Positions 4,913 to 56,112 of a DNA stretch of 64,000 nt are shown here, one piece after another. Position 1 is the stretch's first letter. Each line of letters opens with the position of its first letter. The position numbers were made by a program, and so were the translations under genes. Source of the stretch: Aeromicrobium endophyticum (lineage in GTDB: Bacteria; Actinomycetota; Actinomycetes; Propionibacteriales; Nocardioidaceae); contig NZ_QUBR01000003.1 of NCBI RefSeq assembly GCF_003586285.1, forward strand, positions 124,001-188,000, in the 5' to 3' direction. A model generated the notes under the pieces. It was not told the DNA's origin. It made no database searches and was given only the letters and a program-made list of their open reading frames with translations.

Positions 4913-5536
4913 TCAGGCCAGCAGCTCCTTGGCCCTCGCGACCACCTCGGGCGACGCCGCGTGGAGTGAACCGGATCGATAGGGCGGCGAGGGCGCGTAC
5001 TCGGCCAACAGCTGCGACGTCTGAGCAGCCTCGTCGCCCGACATCAGTCCGATCAGCGTCAACGCCATGTCGATGCCGGCGGACACCCCGGCCGCGGTGG
5101 CGTACTTCCCGTCGATGACCACTCGGTCGTCTGACGGGTGGGCGCCGAAGTCAGTCAGCTCCGCGAGCGCGCCCCAATGGGTGGTCGCTCGCCGGCCCTC
5201 CAGGAGCCCGGCGGAGGCCAGGATCAACGAACCGGTGCAGGCCGACGTCGTCCACGTGCTGCTCCGGTCGACGGTGCGCAACCACTCGTGGAGGTGCGTG
5301 TTGGTCGTCTGTGCCACGTAGCCCGGCCCTCCTCCGATCACCACCACGTCGGGATCGAGCACGTCGTCGAGTCCCCGTGTCGCCTGCATGGCCAGGGAAC
5401 CGATGTCGTTCACGACCGGGCCCGCGGTGTCGGCCACGAAGACCACCTCGGCGCCGGGGACGCCGGCCAAGAAGTGATAGGGCCCGACGACGTCGAGCGC
5501 GGTGAAGTCCGGGTAGAGGACGATGGCAACCTTCAT
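4913..5536 (-). CDS. DJ-1/PfpI family protein (isonitrile-hydratase-like), paralogue 1
   Basis: 207 residues of the DJ-1/PfpI glutamine-amidotransferase-like fold. It has the N-terminal VAIVLYPDFTALDVVGP with Asp15, the PDVVVIGGGPG turn, and the nucleophile elbow TTSACTGS with Cys100 and Thr101. This Asp/Cys/Thr set is the one used by Pseudomonas isonitrile hydratase (InhA). The start MKVAIVLYP matches the two neighbouring paralogues. It is divergent from paralogue 2 across 246 nt. The true substrate is not known; cyclopropane- or isonitrile-type hydration and glyoxalase-like activity are family options. Confidence 0.85.
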   Translation of the reverse strand: MKVAIVLYPDFTALDVVGPYHFLAGVPGAEVVFVADTAGPVVNDIGSLAMQATRGLDDVLDPDVVVIGGGPGYVAQTTNTHLHEWLRTVDRSSTWTTSACTGSLILASAGLLEGRRATTHWGALAELTDFGAHPSDDRVVIDGKYATAAGVSAGIDMALTLIGLMSGDEAAQTSQLLAEYAPSPPYRSGSLHAASPEVVARAKELLA

Positions 5537-5782: not shown

Positions 5783-6421
5783 GTGCAGATCGCCATAGTG
5801 CTGTATCCCGAGTTCACGGCGCTCGACGTCATCGGTCCGTACGAGGTGCTGAGCCGGATCCCTGGGGCGGAGGTCGTCTTCGCGGCTCACGAACCGGGTG
5901 ACGTCGCGGACGCGACGGGGAGCCTGCTGGTCTCCGCGATGGCCTTGGACGACGTGAGCCGCCCCGACGTGGTGCTGGTCGGCGGCGGCCCGGGACAGGC
6001 GGGTCTGATGGCCGACGGGCCCGTGCATCGGTGGCTTCGCGCGGTCGACCCGACGTCGACGTGGATGTCCGCCGTCAGCACGGGGTCGCTGATCCTGGCG
6101 TCAGCCGGACTGCTCGGCGATCGCGAGGTCGCGACGCACTGGTTGGCCACGGGCCAGCTTGCGGTGCTGGGGGCGAAGAGCACGAGCGACCGGGTCGTCA
6201 TCGACGGCAAGTACGCCACAGCGGCCGGCGTGTCCGCCGGCATCGACCTGGCCTTGACGCTCGCCGGTCTGATCGCCGGTGACGAGGTGGCCCAGGCGAT
6301 CCAGCTGATCGTCGAGTACTCGCCCGAACCTCCCTACGCATCCGGTACGCCCGAGTCGGCTTCGCCCCGGGTGGTGGAGCGGGTGCTCGCCCGACGCGAC
6401 GAGCTCCTCGGCACCACGTGA
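5783..6421 (+). CDS. DJ-1/PfpI family protein, paralogue 2, catalytic Cys replaced by Ser
   Basis: 212 residues, closely similar to the divergent paralogue at 4913-5536 along its whole length (VQIAIVLYPEFTALDVIGPY; DRVVIDGKYATAAGVSAGID). The GTG at 5783 is chosen because AGGAGA lies 6-12 nt upstream and it starts at the same residue as the paralogue; an ATG at 5747 would add 12 residues without a good ribosome site. The nucleophile elbow reads SAVSTGS, so the conserved Cys is Ser99 (AGC at 6077). Asp15 and the following Thr are kept. It may be a binding or sensory protein, or an enzyme with altered chemistry. Confidence 0.85.
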   Translation: MQIAIVLYPEFTALDVIGPYEVLSRIPGAEVVFAAHEPGDVADATGSLLVSAMALDDVSRPDVVLVGGGPGQAGLMADGPVHRWLRAVDPTSTWMSAVSTGSLILASAGLLGDREVATHWLATGQLAVLGAKSTSDRVVIDGKYATAAGVSAGIDLALTLAGLIAGDEVAQAIQLIVEYSPEPPYASGTPESASPRVVERVLARRDELLGTT

Positions 6422-17313: not shown

Positions 17314-17397
17314 CCGCGAGTGGCGCAGTTCTGCGGATCTGAGACGGCGATTCTCGCGGGACTGCGCCACTCGCGGTCGGGACTGCGCCACTCGCGG
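17314..17397 (+). repeat. Palindromic intergenic repeat, copy A (REP-like)
   Basis: CCGCGAGTGGCGCAGT at 17314-17329 and its exact reverse complement at 17361-17376 form a 16-bp inverted repeat around a 31-nt core. A further copy of the right arm follows at 17382-17397. The same element occurs at 42147 and, inverted, at 43354. It separates two convergent genes and is followed by a run of ten G (17403-17412). Confidence 0.85.
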
Positions 17398-42146: not shown

Positions 42147-42227
42147 CCGCGAGTGGCGCAATCCTGCGTTTCTGGGACGGCGTGTCGCGCGAGACTGCGC
42201 CACTCGCGGCCTGGAATGCGCCACTCG
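42147..42227 (+). repeat. Palindromic intergenic repeat, copy B (REP-like)
   Basis: Left arm CCGCGAGTGGCGCA at 42147-42160, right arm its reverse complement at 42196-42209, core with GGGACGGCGTGTC, then an extra partial right arm TGCGCCACTCG at 42217. Same orientation as copy A; it lies upstream of the endonuclease-like gene. Confidence 0.85.
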
Positions 42228-42312
42228 ACCGCGGGGCTGTGGACGCGGCGACGTGTCCACAGCCCCGAGAATGTCAGTGGAGCGCGACGTTCCCCGTGGT
42301 GACGGTGGAGGG

Positions 42313-43314
42313 ATGGATCCCGTCCGTCACCGAGATGCCGAGGCGCGCGGCCTCAGCCCCCACCTGCTGCGCACCTCGTGGTTCGTCCACCCCGCCGCGG
42401 GGGTCGCGCAGCTTGCCTCCACGGCGGACGACCTCGCGTCCACGTGTCGTGCCGTCGCGATGGTGCTGCCCGACGACGTGGTGTTCACGCACGTGACGAG
42501 CGCGCGGCTGCGCGAGTGGTGGATGCCGCTGCTGGACGACCTGCCCCTCGTCGCCTGCAGCTGGCGTGAAGCGCCGCACGCCGACCGCCGCGGGGTGTAC
42601 GTCCGGCGGTGCGGCATCCCGCCGGGTCACCGCGAGCGACTTGACGGCGTGCCGGTCGCCTCCGCCGAGTGGACGATCGTCGAGCTGGCCGAGCACCTCG
42701 CGCTGCTCGACCTCGTCGCGCTGATCGACTCGGCGCTGCACCTCGGGCACACCTCGGTCGACCTGATCCGGGCCACGATGGTGCCGGGCCGCAGGGGAGT
42801 CCGGGTGCTCCGGCGGGCGCTCGACCTCGTCGACGGTCGCAGCGAGTCGTGGTGGGAGACGATGCTGCGCCTGCTCCACGTGCTCTCGGGGTTCGAGGTC
42901 GAGCCCCAGCACGTCGTGCGCAACATCGCAGGCATCGAGGTCGCGCGCGGCGACCTGCGCATCACCGGTACCAACCGGCTGGCCGAGTACGACGGGTCGG
43001 ACCATCGCGAACGAGGGCGGCACCAGCGCGACCTGCGGCGCGAGAAGGCCTTGGCCCGCGAGGGCATCGAGCGGTACGGCTACACCGCCACCGAGATCAT
43101 CCACTCGCCCGAGCTCGTCGTGCGTGATGCCGAGACGGCGCGGGGGCTGGCACACGTCCCGGGACGCCTCGGGCTGTGGCGTGCGGAAGCGAGCTCGGCC
43201 ACGGTCTCGGCTGCGGGTCAGCGGGCCCTGCGTCGACGACTCCAGCGTCTCGTGCGCATAACCTCTCCCCGCGCGAGTGGCGCGAGACCGCCCGCGAGTG
43301 GCGCAACCTCGTGA
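42313..43314 (+). CDS. AbiEi/DUF559-like protein with Vsr-type endonuclease domain
   Basis: About 333 residues. The first half (LLRTSWFVHPAAGVAQLAST, LPDDVVFTHVTSARLREWWM) resembles the winged-helix and AbiEi-like region common in actinobacterial proteins of this type. The last 130 residues have a PD-(D/E)xK pattern: Glu in SESWWETMLRLLHV, Asp in RGDLRI, then LAEYDGSDHRERGRHQRDLR, as in DUF559/very-short-patch-repair nucleases. Start choice is uncertain: ATG 42313 is used, ATG 42271 and GTG 42253 are possible. The final about 15 codons and the stop lie inside repeat copy C. It stands alone between two inverted copies of the repeat. Confidence 0.75.
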   Translation: MDPVRHRDAEARGLSPHLLRTSWFVHPAAGVAQLASTADDLASTCRAVAMVLPDDVVFTHVTSARLREWWMPLLDDLPLVACSWREAPHADRRGVYVRRCGIPPGHRERLDGVPVASAEWTIVELAEHLALLDLVALIDSALHLGHTSVDLIRATMVPGRRGVRVLRRALDLVDGRSESWWETMLRLLHVLSGFEVEPQHVVRNIAGIEVARGDLRITGTNRLAEYDGSDHRERGRHQRDLRREKALAREGIERYGYTATEIIHSPELVVRDAETARGLAHVPGRLGLWRAEASSATVSAAGQRALRRRLQRLVRITSPRASGARPPASGATS

Positions 43315-43354
43315 GACACGCCGTCCCGAAAACGCGAGACTGCGCCACTCGCGG
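43272..43354 (-). repeat. Palindromic intergenic repeat, copy C (REP-like, inverted)
   Basis: Read on the minus strand it matches copy B: CCGCGAGTGGCGCA (43354-43341), core with GGGACGGCGTGTC, closing arm at 43305-43292, and a partial extra arm at 43283-43272. So copies B and C bracket the endonuclease-like gene in opposite orientation, and C supplies the gene's stop codon. Confidence 0.85.
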
Positions 43355-55539: not shown

Positions 55540-56112
55540 TCAGTCGTCACTGCCGTGGTCATCCGATCCAGTATGACCGTCGCGGCGGTCGTCGTCGCCG
55601 CCGTGACGGCCGCTGTCGTCGCGTCCGTCGCGGTGCGCTCCGTCGTCGACCTTGGTGTCGTCGGTGCCGGTGTGGCGCTGCTGATGGGCTCCGTCGTCGA
55701 CCTTGGTGTCGTCGGTCCCGGTGTGGCGCTGGTGGTGGGCTCCGTCGTCGGACCCCCCGCGATCGTCGTCACGCCCTGCTCGGCGTCCGCCCTTGTCGTC
55801 GCCGGGCTCGCTGTGCCGGCCGGATCGGCGCCCGCCCTTGTCGTCGCCCGGTTCTGCGTGGCGCCCACCGTGACCGCGGTCGTCCGTGGCGGAGGGCACC
55901 GAGGCAGGCGGAGCCGCACTGGGCGTGGCCGTCGTGGGCGAGGGCGTGACGGGTGAGGGCGTGGTGGCCGAGGGCGTGGTGGGTGCGGCGCTCGTGACGG
56001 CGGCGGGCTTCAGCGGCACGCTGGTGGTCAGCGAGGTGTTGCCGACGACGCCGAGCACCGTCGGGACCGCCGCCACCACCAGTCCGGTGGCAATGATGAT
56101 GAGTCGTTGCAT
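55540..56112 (-). CDS. Secreted Asp/His/Gly-rich tandem-repeat protein
   Basis: 190 residues. A signal peptide (QRLIIIATGLVVAAVPTVLG) precedes a Thr/Pro/Ser segment (about 35-72), then repeats: GRHSEPGDDKGGRRS-type units of 15 residues (two), and DDGAHQQRHTGTDDTKV units of 17 residues (two and a part). The tail is DDRRDGHTGSDDHGSDD. The Asp/His density suggests metal or ion binding. No known family. The ATG at 56112 follows GAGAGGAA. It ends 13 nt before the histidine kinase start and is probably co-transcribed with it. Confidence 0.7.
   Translation of the reverse strand: MQRLIIIATGLVVAAVPTVLGVVGNTSLTTSVPLKPAAVTSAAPTTPSATTPSPVTPSPTTATPSAAPPASVPSATDDRGHGGRHAEPGDDKGGRRSGRHSEPGDDKGGRRAGRDDDRGGSDDGAHHQRHTGTDDTKVDDGAHQQRHTGTDDTKVDDGAHRDGRDDSGRHGGDDDRRDGHTGSDDHGSDD
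55637..55738. repeat. 51-nt tandem repeat, two full copies and a partial third
   Basis: Units at 55637-55687 and 55688-55738 are almost identical; a third begins at 55739 and fades. They encode the 17-residue repeat of the secreted protein. Copy number may vary between strains. Confidence 0.85.

Follow-up and report, generated by a model that had tools for sequence, protein, structure and literature searches.

The locus considered here raises the question of why a single gene for a nuclease-like protein lies between two inverted copies of a palindromic repeat, and whether gene and repeat belong together. The gene is part of a stretch of 64,000 nucleotides from Aeromicrobium endophyticum (the window), whose own genome (G000) comprises 4.03 Mb in 4 contigs. 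A preliminary description had placed copies B and C in opposite orientation on either side of the gene, each with an extra partial arm, and all of these coordinates are confirmed (see table). The two copies are mutually inverted over 98-nt arms that are 78% complementary, with one single gene between them. It had also been proposed that copy C supplies the end of the gene, and the reading frame indeed ends inside this copy, which contributes the last codons and the stop (TGA, 43312-43314). A GTG at 42253 is an alternative possible start further upstream. The flanking genes encode PadR and CBS-domain proteins according to Pfam, with an inositol-monophosphatase gene also nearby. Of the 63-nt repeat with a fixed core that had been reported, the palindrome stands, its constant unit being GAGTGGCGCA-N35-TGCGCCACTC (type 1), which measures 55 bp spanning both half-sites and to which a third half-site is usually added, 21 bp past the 3' one. 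The core GGGACGGCGTGTC does not hold as a general feature, the same geometry being found around unrelated centres in other genomes. Elsewhere in the window, a 197-nt inverted repeat (4933-5129 and 6187-6383, 1057 nt apart) is 77% complementary, and a 51-nt unit is present in two tandem copies that are 92% identical (55634-55735).

Table. Features of the palindrome-flanked gene and of the solo repeat copy, in window coordinates.
Feature	Position	Strand	Remarks
Copy A, solo type-1 palindrome	17318..17372	+	Convergent 3' junction, locus L043; whole copy A 17314-17397
Copy A, extra half-site	17384..17393	-	
Copy B, 55-bp type-1 palindrome	42151..42205	+	107 bp upstream of the ATG of the nuclease gene
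Copy B, arm CCGCGAGTGGCGCA	42147-42160		
Copy B, arm TGCGCCACTCGCGG	42196-42209		
Copy B, third (extra) half-site TGCGCCACTC	42217..42226	-	21 bp on, facing the gene
AbiEi/Vsr-like nuclease gene	42313..43314	+	333 aa from ATG 42313
AbiEi-antitoxin-like region (model)	42313..42834	+	Codons 1-174; 6y8q
Predicted nuclease domain	42847..43146	+	Codons 179-278; 3r3p
Copy C, extra half-site GAGTGGCGCG	43275..43284	+	Facing the gene, within the reading frame
Copy C, 55-bp type-1 palindrome	43296..43350	-	Opposite orientation to copy B
Copy C, arms	43292-43305 and 43341-43354		

The window protein is, in its predicted fold, an AbiEi-like N-terminus joined to a Vsr/I-Bth0305I-like nuclease domain. The structure model was built from 29 aligned homologues (mean pLDDT 89). 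Residues 1-174 align with the AbiEi antitoxin of S. agalactiae (6y8q; Z 8.9, rmsd 5.6, 165 aligned), and residues 179-278 with I-Bth0305I (3r3p; Z 11.1, rmsd 2.7, 92 of 97 residues aligned). The latter is the top match of the nuclease domain among the solved structures listed, which also include a Neisseria endonuclease-like protein (Z 10.0) and Vsr (Z 8.6). With Foldseek alone, nothing matched the model at E 0.001 or better. Residues D214, E225, D227, H231, D240 and R243 are invariant across the 29 homologues. The Pfam model DUF559 (PF04480) scores 17.1 bits on the window protein versus a curated cut-off of 20.6, a value passed by three of the six relatives scanned (L011 26.9, L012 25.7 and L085 27.5 bits) and not reached by L010, L104 and L097. 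The AbiEi model of PADLOC matches the window protein at E 0.0022, and AbiEi models match L011, a more distant paralogue in the same genome, at E 1.2e-18. The earlier assignment as an AbiEi/DUF559-Vsr-like enzyme is thus borne out by the modelled fold. At E 1e-30, 43 of the 49 genus genomes contain between one and six genes of this family.

The repeat is dispersed over the genome. The pattern GAGTGGCGCA-N34..36-TGCGCCACTC occurs in 19 exact copies in the 4.03-Mb genome versus none for a letter-reversed control, and a chance origin is therefore excluded. With at most one mismatch, the 14-letter arm yields 27 forward and 31 reverse matches, compared with 13 and 8 in the control. An RNA element was considered and dropped: an Rfam scan of six loci returned one match only, unrelated and below the gathering score.

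Bracketing is also frequent among homologues of the gene from other Actinobacteria, where the palindromes are different, lineage-specific and ~50-70 bp long. Among 31 homologue loci (30 from a family search, the window locus included, and the paralogue described below), 24 have an inverted match of at least 40 between upstream and downstream flank, with the best of 60 shuffles per locus reaching up to 44; three of the seven misses (L094, L099 and L100) nevertheless contain the motif on both sides. A narrower version of this bracket test was passed by 22/33 close and 22/44 distant loci (controls 0/31, 0/29, 0/27 and 1/27 for the close set; 1/42, 3/43, 1/41 and 0/39 for the distant set). It lacked power, since the start of many matches falls within the gene; a second version therefore took in more upstream sequence and set the threshold slightly higher (named set of 80 loci, threshold 42, either orientation). 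In this form, bracketing is seen at 20 of the 33 close and 35 of the 43 distant loci that could be tested, versus 1/31, 0/29 and 0/27 (close) and 0/41, 5/42 and 0/40 (distant) for shifted flanks and 0/27 testable loci for a CBS-domain gene of the same genus. These two controls rule out random bracketing, and the preliminary description, which had staked its proposal on homologues being flanked more often than other genes, is upheld on this point. A cross-locus null was set aside, being contaminated by loci of one lineage (maximum 73). Furthermore, 13 repeat-carrying genomes at first without a homologue have distant homologues detectable by profile search, and 25 of 30 loci from these genomes reach 42 in a set without shifted control. 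In a second subfamily 14 of 16 loci are bracketed, and no shifted control that was measured exceeds 32. Spans of ~49-75 bp, mostly 55-68, came from a simple hairpin scan of 15 loci chosen by hand, which missed the palindrome on one or both sides at L271, L281 and L289. The 13 of 33 close named loci that failed the bracket test belong mostly to Nocardioides, Cellulomonas and Geodermatophilaceae.

Bracketing alone is not diagnostic, since in G000 a GNAT gene lies between two inverted type-1 copies and a PfkB gene is likewise found between two copies. The GNAT acetyltransferase locus (L017 2464-3615, C1:315963-317113 of G000), whose second type-1 copy is partly decayed in G128, represents either cargo or coincidence.

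Across genomes, the presence of the repeat largely follows that of the gene. With a close homologue defined by a chosen cut-off of at least 200 bits, exact type-1 repeats occur in 15 of the 16 genus genomes that have one versus 6 of the 33 that do not (Fisher p 4.6e-7), and outside the genus, within the family, in 8/11 versus 1/185 (p 3e-11), p-values that are optimistic because the genomes share ancestry and are not phylogenetically independent. The repeats are hence not equally common in relatives lacking the gene, the outcome that had been named beforehand as speaking against a connection. Type-1 repeats in genomes without a close gene are those of G121 (11 copies), G140 (8), G056 (6), G115 (3), G134 (2) and G088 (1), as well as of the 62%-complete G017 (15). 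In G121, G056 and G088 (for example at L051, L053 and L048), an outer GAGTGGCGCA encloses a nested inner palindrome GCCCGCCACTC..GAGTGGCGGGC, again with no close gene.

The association extends to the type of repeat. A paralogue at C1:1276742, 67% identical to the window protein, is bracketed by GAGTGGTGCG elements (type 2; GAGTGGTGCR, the GTGCR pattern), of which its own genome contains 17 copies. Two gene/palindrome pairs therefore coexist in one genome, gene 1 with the 19 GAGTGGCGCA copies and gene 2 with the 17 type-2 copies, and the two types are never mixed within one core among 67 elements from four genomes (42 type 1, 22 type 2 and 3 one-letter variants). Genes of G142 and G153 lie between GTGCR elements (L084 and L083) in genomes with 10 and 3 copies, respectively. 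G128 has 3 GTGCR copies and a second homologue (C1:1020340) with GTGCG upstream and no exact half-site downstream. The GTGCR type is present in five of the other 45 genus genomes. In two of these, G094 and G138, the genome's own gene is flanked by GTGCA, and G138 combines a close gene with zero type-1 repeats. In the remaining three, G100, G106 and G171, the type fits the pairing of gene and repeat poorly, with G106 (14 copies) and the 58%-complete G171 (10 copies) lacking a close gene. A Fisher test for the GTGCR type was set aside, since G128 had been entered in it as a genome with a flanked gene.

A third gene of the window's genome (C1:1117124) is bracketed by ATGTCGGCACTT-N31-AAGTGCCGACAT, a pattern with 5 copies in that genome, 6 in G128, 3 in G109 and a single one in G165; the other 45 genomes lack it. 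The 15 elements all measure exactly 55 bp in a search that allowed N28-44. The pairing is imperfect here: G128 carries 6 copies while its best homologue of the third gene (L028) is only 45% identical, and G153 has a 71% homologue and zero exact copies of the L028 repeat. Over the family, half-site type follows protein phylogeny. Half-site labels, assigned by hand to 27 of the 29 rows, require 7 changes on the protein tree (minimum 6), compared with a mean of 11.7 after shuffling, none of 200 shuffles being as low. In the Nocardioides group (g7), 10 genomes hold at least 8 copies of a GGTGGCGGC-type palindrome. Of these, 9 have a homologue (E 1e-20 or better), as do 63 of the 119 g7 genomes searched, so that the association exceeds the base rate only weakly. 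The gene does sit between listed copies of this palindrome in G125 and G141. Runs of the palindrome with a period of ~72-83 bp were seen in the same group (G067:C1:283021-283487 and G187:C1:230437-230779).

Corresponding sites in related genomes differ in their occupancy. At slot 1, a solo repeat is found in G000, G128 and G126, whereas G142 has a complete cassette of gene and two palindromes there. Slot 2 is occupied by a type-2 element in G000 and G142 and by a type-1 element in G128; in G126 it lacks a repeat, and two frames (710 and 308 codons) overlap there by ATGA. At slot L235 of G000, a type-1 extra half-site stands beside a type-2 core, whereas the G128 orthologue (L250) is type 1 throughout; the L235 core thus appears to have been overwritten by the other type, judging from this comparison. 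G103 provides an empty site for the second element of L023. The few empty sites viewed gave no sign of a target-site duplication. Two differences of 1.0-1.2 kb near slots of G126 (L263 and L267) turned out to be unrelated genes and not cassettes. In G000, ~2.9 kb separate a type-1 from a type-2 repeat (L026/L240, C1:2016357-2019327), where G128 (L247) has one repeat; the difference may be a deletion or an insertion with breakpoints at the repeats.

The junction that carries the window gene was followed through its CBS-domain neighbour, a protein with matches in 42 of the 49 genus genomes; 30 loci were read together with 1.5-kb flanks. The window gene is present at this junction only in G000 and G128, and 22 of the other 28 loci have a PadR match. 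Repeats beside the CBS gene without the window gene occur in four of the 28: a solo copy in G103, an inverted pair with no gene between in G142, and a solo copy each in G163 and G165, which possibly do not represent the same junction because both lack a PadR match. The G142 pair (L204, ~1240-1470) consists of two inverted type-2-like elements with a short spacer, and may be either a REPIN-like doublet or a gutted cassette. Ten homologue loci share the paralogue's neighbours beside the gene for ribosomal S6 (named by Pfam in G000), yet their half-site types differ; L087 shares one side only, and L083 matches over a short stretch on its right-hand side. The gene to the left of the S6 locus had been labelled MOSC, a label that Pfam did not confirm and that was dropped. 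The shared site suggests that the gene is inherited mostly vertically, though several sites are occupied.

Taken together, the gene and its two palindromes probably constitute one cassette of a homing-like nuclease/palindrome mobile system, a non-HUH analogue of REP/RAYT. The protein would bind the palindrome as a dimer on double-stranded DNA with one subunit per half-site, and the third half-site could add co-operativity or regulation. Nicking or cutting at the palindrome would then be followed by repair from another copy, that is, by ectopic, homing-like conversion. In this way palindromes, and sometimes the whole palindrome-gene-palindrome cassette, could move into or overwrite slots at the 3' ends of genes. 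By analogy with AbiEi, the upstream copy may also serve as an operator for autoregulation.

This last step leads to the alternative that the palindromes are nothing other than operators of an autoregulated AbiEi-like repressor, with the scattered copies forming a regulon or decoys and the nuclease acting elsewhere in defence or repair. The AbiEi-like N-terminus, the position of copy B upstream of the gene and the autoregulation of AbiEi through inverted-repeat binding, as reported in PMC7319586, are all compatible with it. However, the second copy usually lies downstream of the gene, and the scattered copies are found in an unexpected place for operators: a coding stop lies within 50 nt of 55 of 60 elements from four genomes, versus 58 of 944 random 55-bp intervals from the same loci, with genes called by a simple codon model. 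The empty sites, the core overwrite and the exchange of cassette and solo copy at one slot would also be left unexplained, and this alternative is considered unlikely.

The same positions could be those of transcription terminators of an actinobacterial type, spread by chance and kept by selection, with bracketing serving to insulate the gene. The 60 elements divide into 26 with a stop on the sense side only, 22 in convergent junctions with stops on both sides, 7 antisense only and 5 with neither. Of the 48 elements with a stop on the sense side, 44 have it 4-46 nt from the half-site, and both this spacing and the convergent copies suit a terminator. A crude gene finder applied to G000 predicts frames that overlap 6 of 38 elements there. 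Terminators, however, have no need of shared 10-bp half-sites, of lineage-specific half-sites that track the protein tree, or of the fixed 55-bp span seen in the third type, and they would not be expected to lack a pairing constraint at the level of the element. That the palindromes are terminators is a poorer account than the operators, and quite improbable.

Pairing was assessed at inner positions 11-20, the outer half-sites being fixed by the search pattern and thus uninformative. In the 67 elements, pairing with the element's own partner (0.476) is no better than that with another element of the same genome and type (0.471), and 1668 of 5000 shuffles are at least as high. Neither the 59 hand-chosen elements (0.554 with the own partner versus 0.559) nor the 15 third-type elements (0.592 versus 0.541; 732 of 5000 shuffles at least as high) show an excess specific to the element. 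This favours symmetric, double-stranded half-sites over selection for a hairpin, and the way in which both halves follow one family consensus is as expected for the site of a symmetric dimer. It speaks against single-strand, REP-like hairpins that are moved by another enzyme, such as an HUH transposase, with the nuclease gene as a frequent passenger. Such a scenario would account for the REP/RAYT-like layout, and the palindromes could form hairpins. However, a search of the window's own genome for PF01797 (Y1/HUH transposase) gave no match, while the control search was positive in 5 of 14 genomes, and the passenger is always of the same family, with its own half-sites; this is very unlikely to be the explanation. 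Least probable of all is a self-marking or addiction-like defence unit, in which the nuclease is directed at incoming DNA and the palindromes either regulate it or label self DNA: AbiEi models of a defence library do match and genomes carry several such genes, but the immediate neighbours of the window gene are the PadR, CBS-domain and inositol-monophosphatase genes, and the exchange at slots is left unexplained.

The mobile nuclease/palindrome cassette remains the preferred reading, and its main difficulties are the repeats without a gene, the bracketed GNAT gene, the unbracketed homologues and the many cleavable sites. The largest number of exact cognate sites in one genome is 69, fewer than is usual for REPs. 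So many sites would be dangerous with a freely active nuclease, and cutting must therefore be rare or tightly controlled. Binding, cutting and movement of the repeats by the protein are inferred steps of the proposal. A bolder generalization, possible but less likely than the cassette itself, is that of a large class of actinobacterial mobile DNA unrelated to any transposase. By extrapolation it would comprise probably thousands of AbiEi-Vsr-like genes, several per genome and each with its own symmetric palindrome of ~55 bp, where a dimeric nuclease cuts and conversion copies palindromes or cassettes between the 3' ends of genes, giving rise to REP-like repeats with no need of HUH enzymes. This amounts to a functional hypothesis for a common family of so far unassigned function (AbiEi-like/DUF559). 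The family offers a cognate site for each gene, natural specificity variants in the form of two pairs in one genome, and slots at which movement can be followed, and it represents a set of nucleases with long symmetric sites whose changes in specificity can be read from sequence.

The likeness to REP/RAYT, which the preliminary description had drawn from the layout, holds for the layout and does not extend to the enzyme or to hairpin covariation. The literature on REPtrons and REPINs describes a nuclease gene flanked by palindromes, extragenic copies and the co-evolution of protein and repeat (PMC8266576; PMC3116915; PMC3733652). All three are shared by the present family: inverted copies of a palindrome that is dispersed over the genome lie on both sides of its gene, and co-evolution is apparent from the half-site labels on the protein tree and the counts of the two types in one genome. 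In contrast to RAYTs, the enzyme is not of the HUH/Y1 kind, and the palindromes are ~50-70 bp long with symmetric half-sites and no covariation of hairpins at the level of the element. Membership is ruled out by the enzyme, with no Y1/HUH match and an AbiEi plus Vsr-like fold in the model; the system would therefore work like REP/RAYT without belonging to it.

The modelled nuclease domain shares its fold with I-Bth0305I, an EDxHD/Vsr-like homing endonuclease which, according to passages of PMC3943268, dimerises on a target of nearly 60 bp. It differs in that no intron is involved, many cognate sites are present per genome and an AbiEi-like region precedes the domain. Unlike homing endonuclease genes, moreover, the window gene lies between intact palindromes and does not interrupt its own target. 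Residues 1-174 resemble, in the model, the AbiEi of type IV AbiE systems, an inverted-repeat-binding protein as noted above. Here the AbiEi-like region is fused to a nuclease domain, repeats occur on both sides and genome-wide, and no AbiEii (DUF1814) toxin gene is found beside the window gene, both flanking genes being of other kinds. The C-terminal domain is similar to DUF559 and MTES_1575 (PF18741), with some relatives exceeding the DUF559 cut-off; searches of open-licence PMC papers pointed to no description of cognate flanking palindromes for such genes, a weak indication that none exists. For CGTC-tagged REPs and other orphan palindromic repeats, no dedicated transposase is known according to PMC3733652. 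In contrast to these repeats, a dedicated non-HUH partner gene is proposed here, offered by the AbiEi-Vsr-like family, which suggests an unrecognised kind of mobile DNA that resembles the known palindrome-spreading systems but employs an unrelated enzyme.
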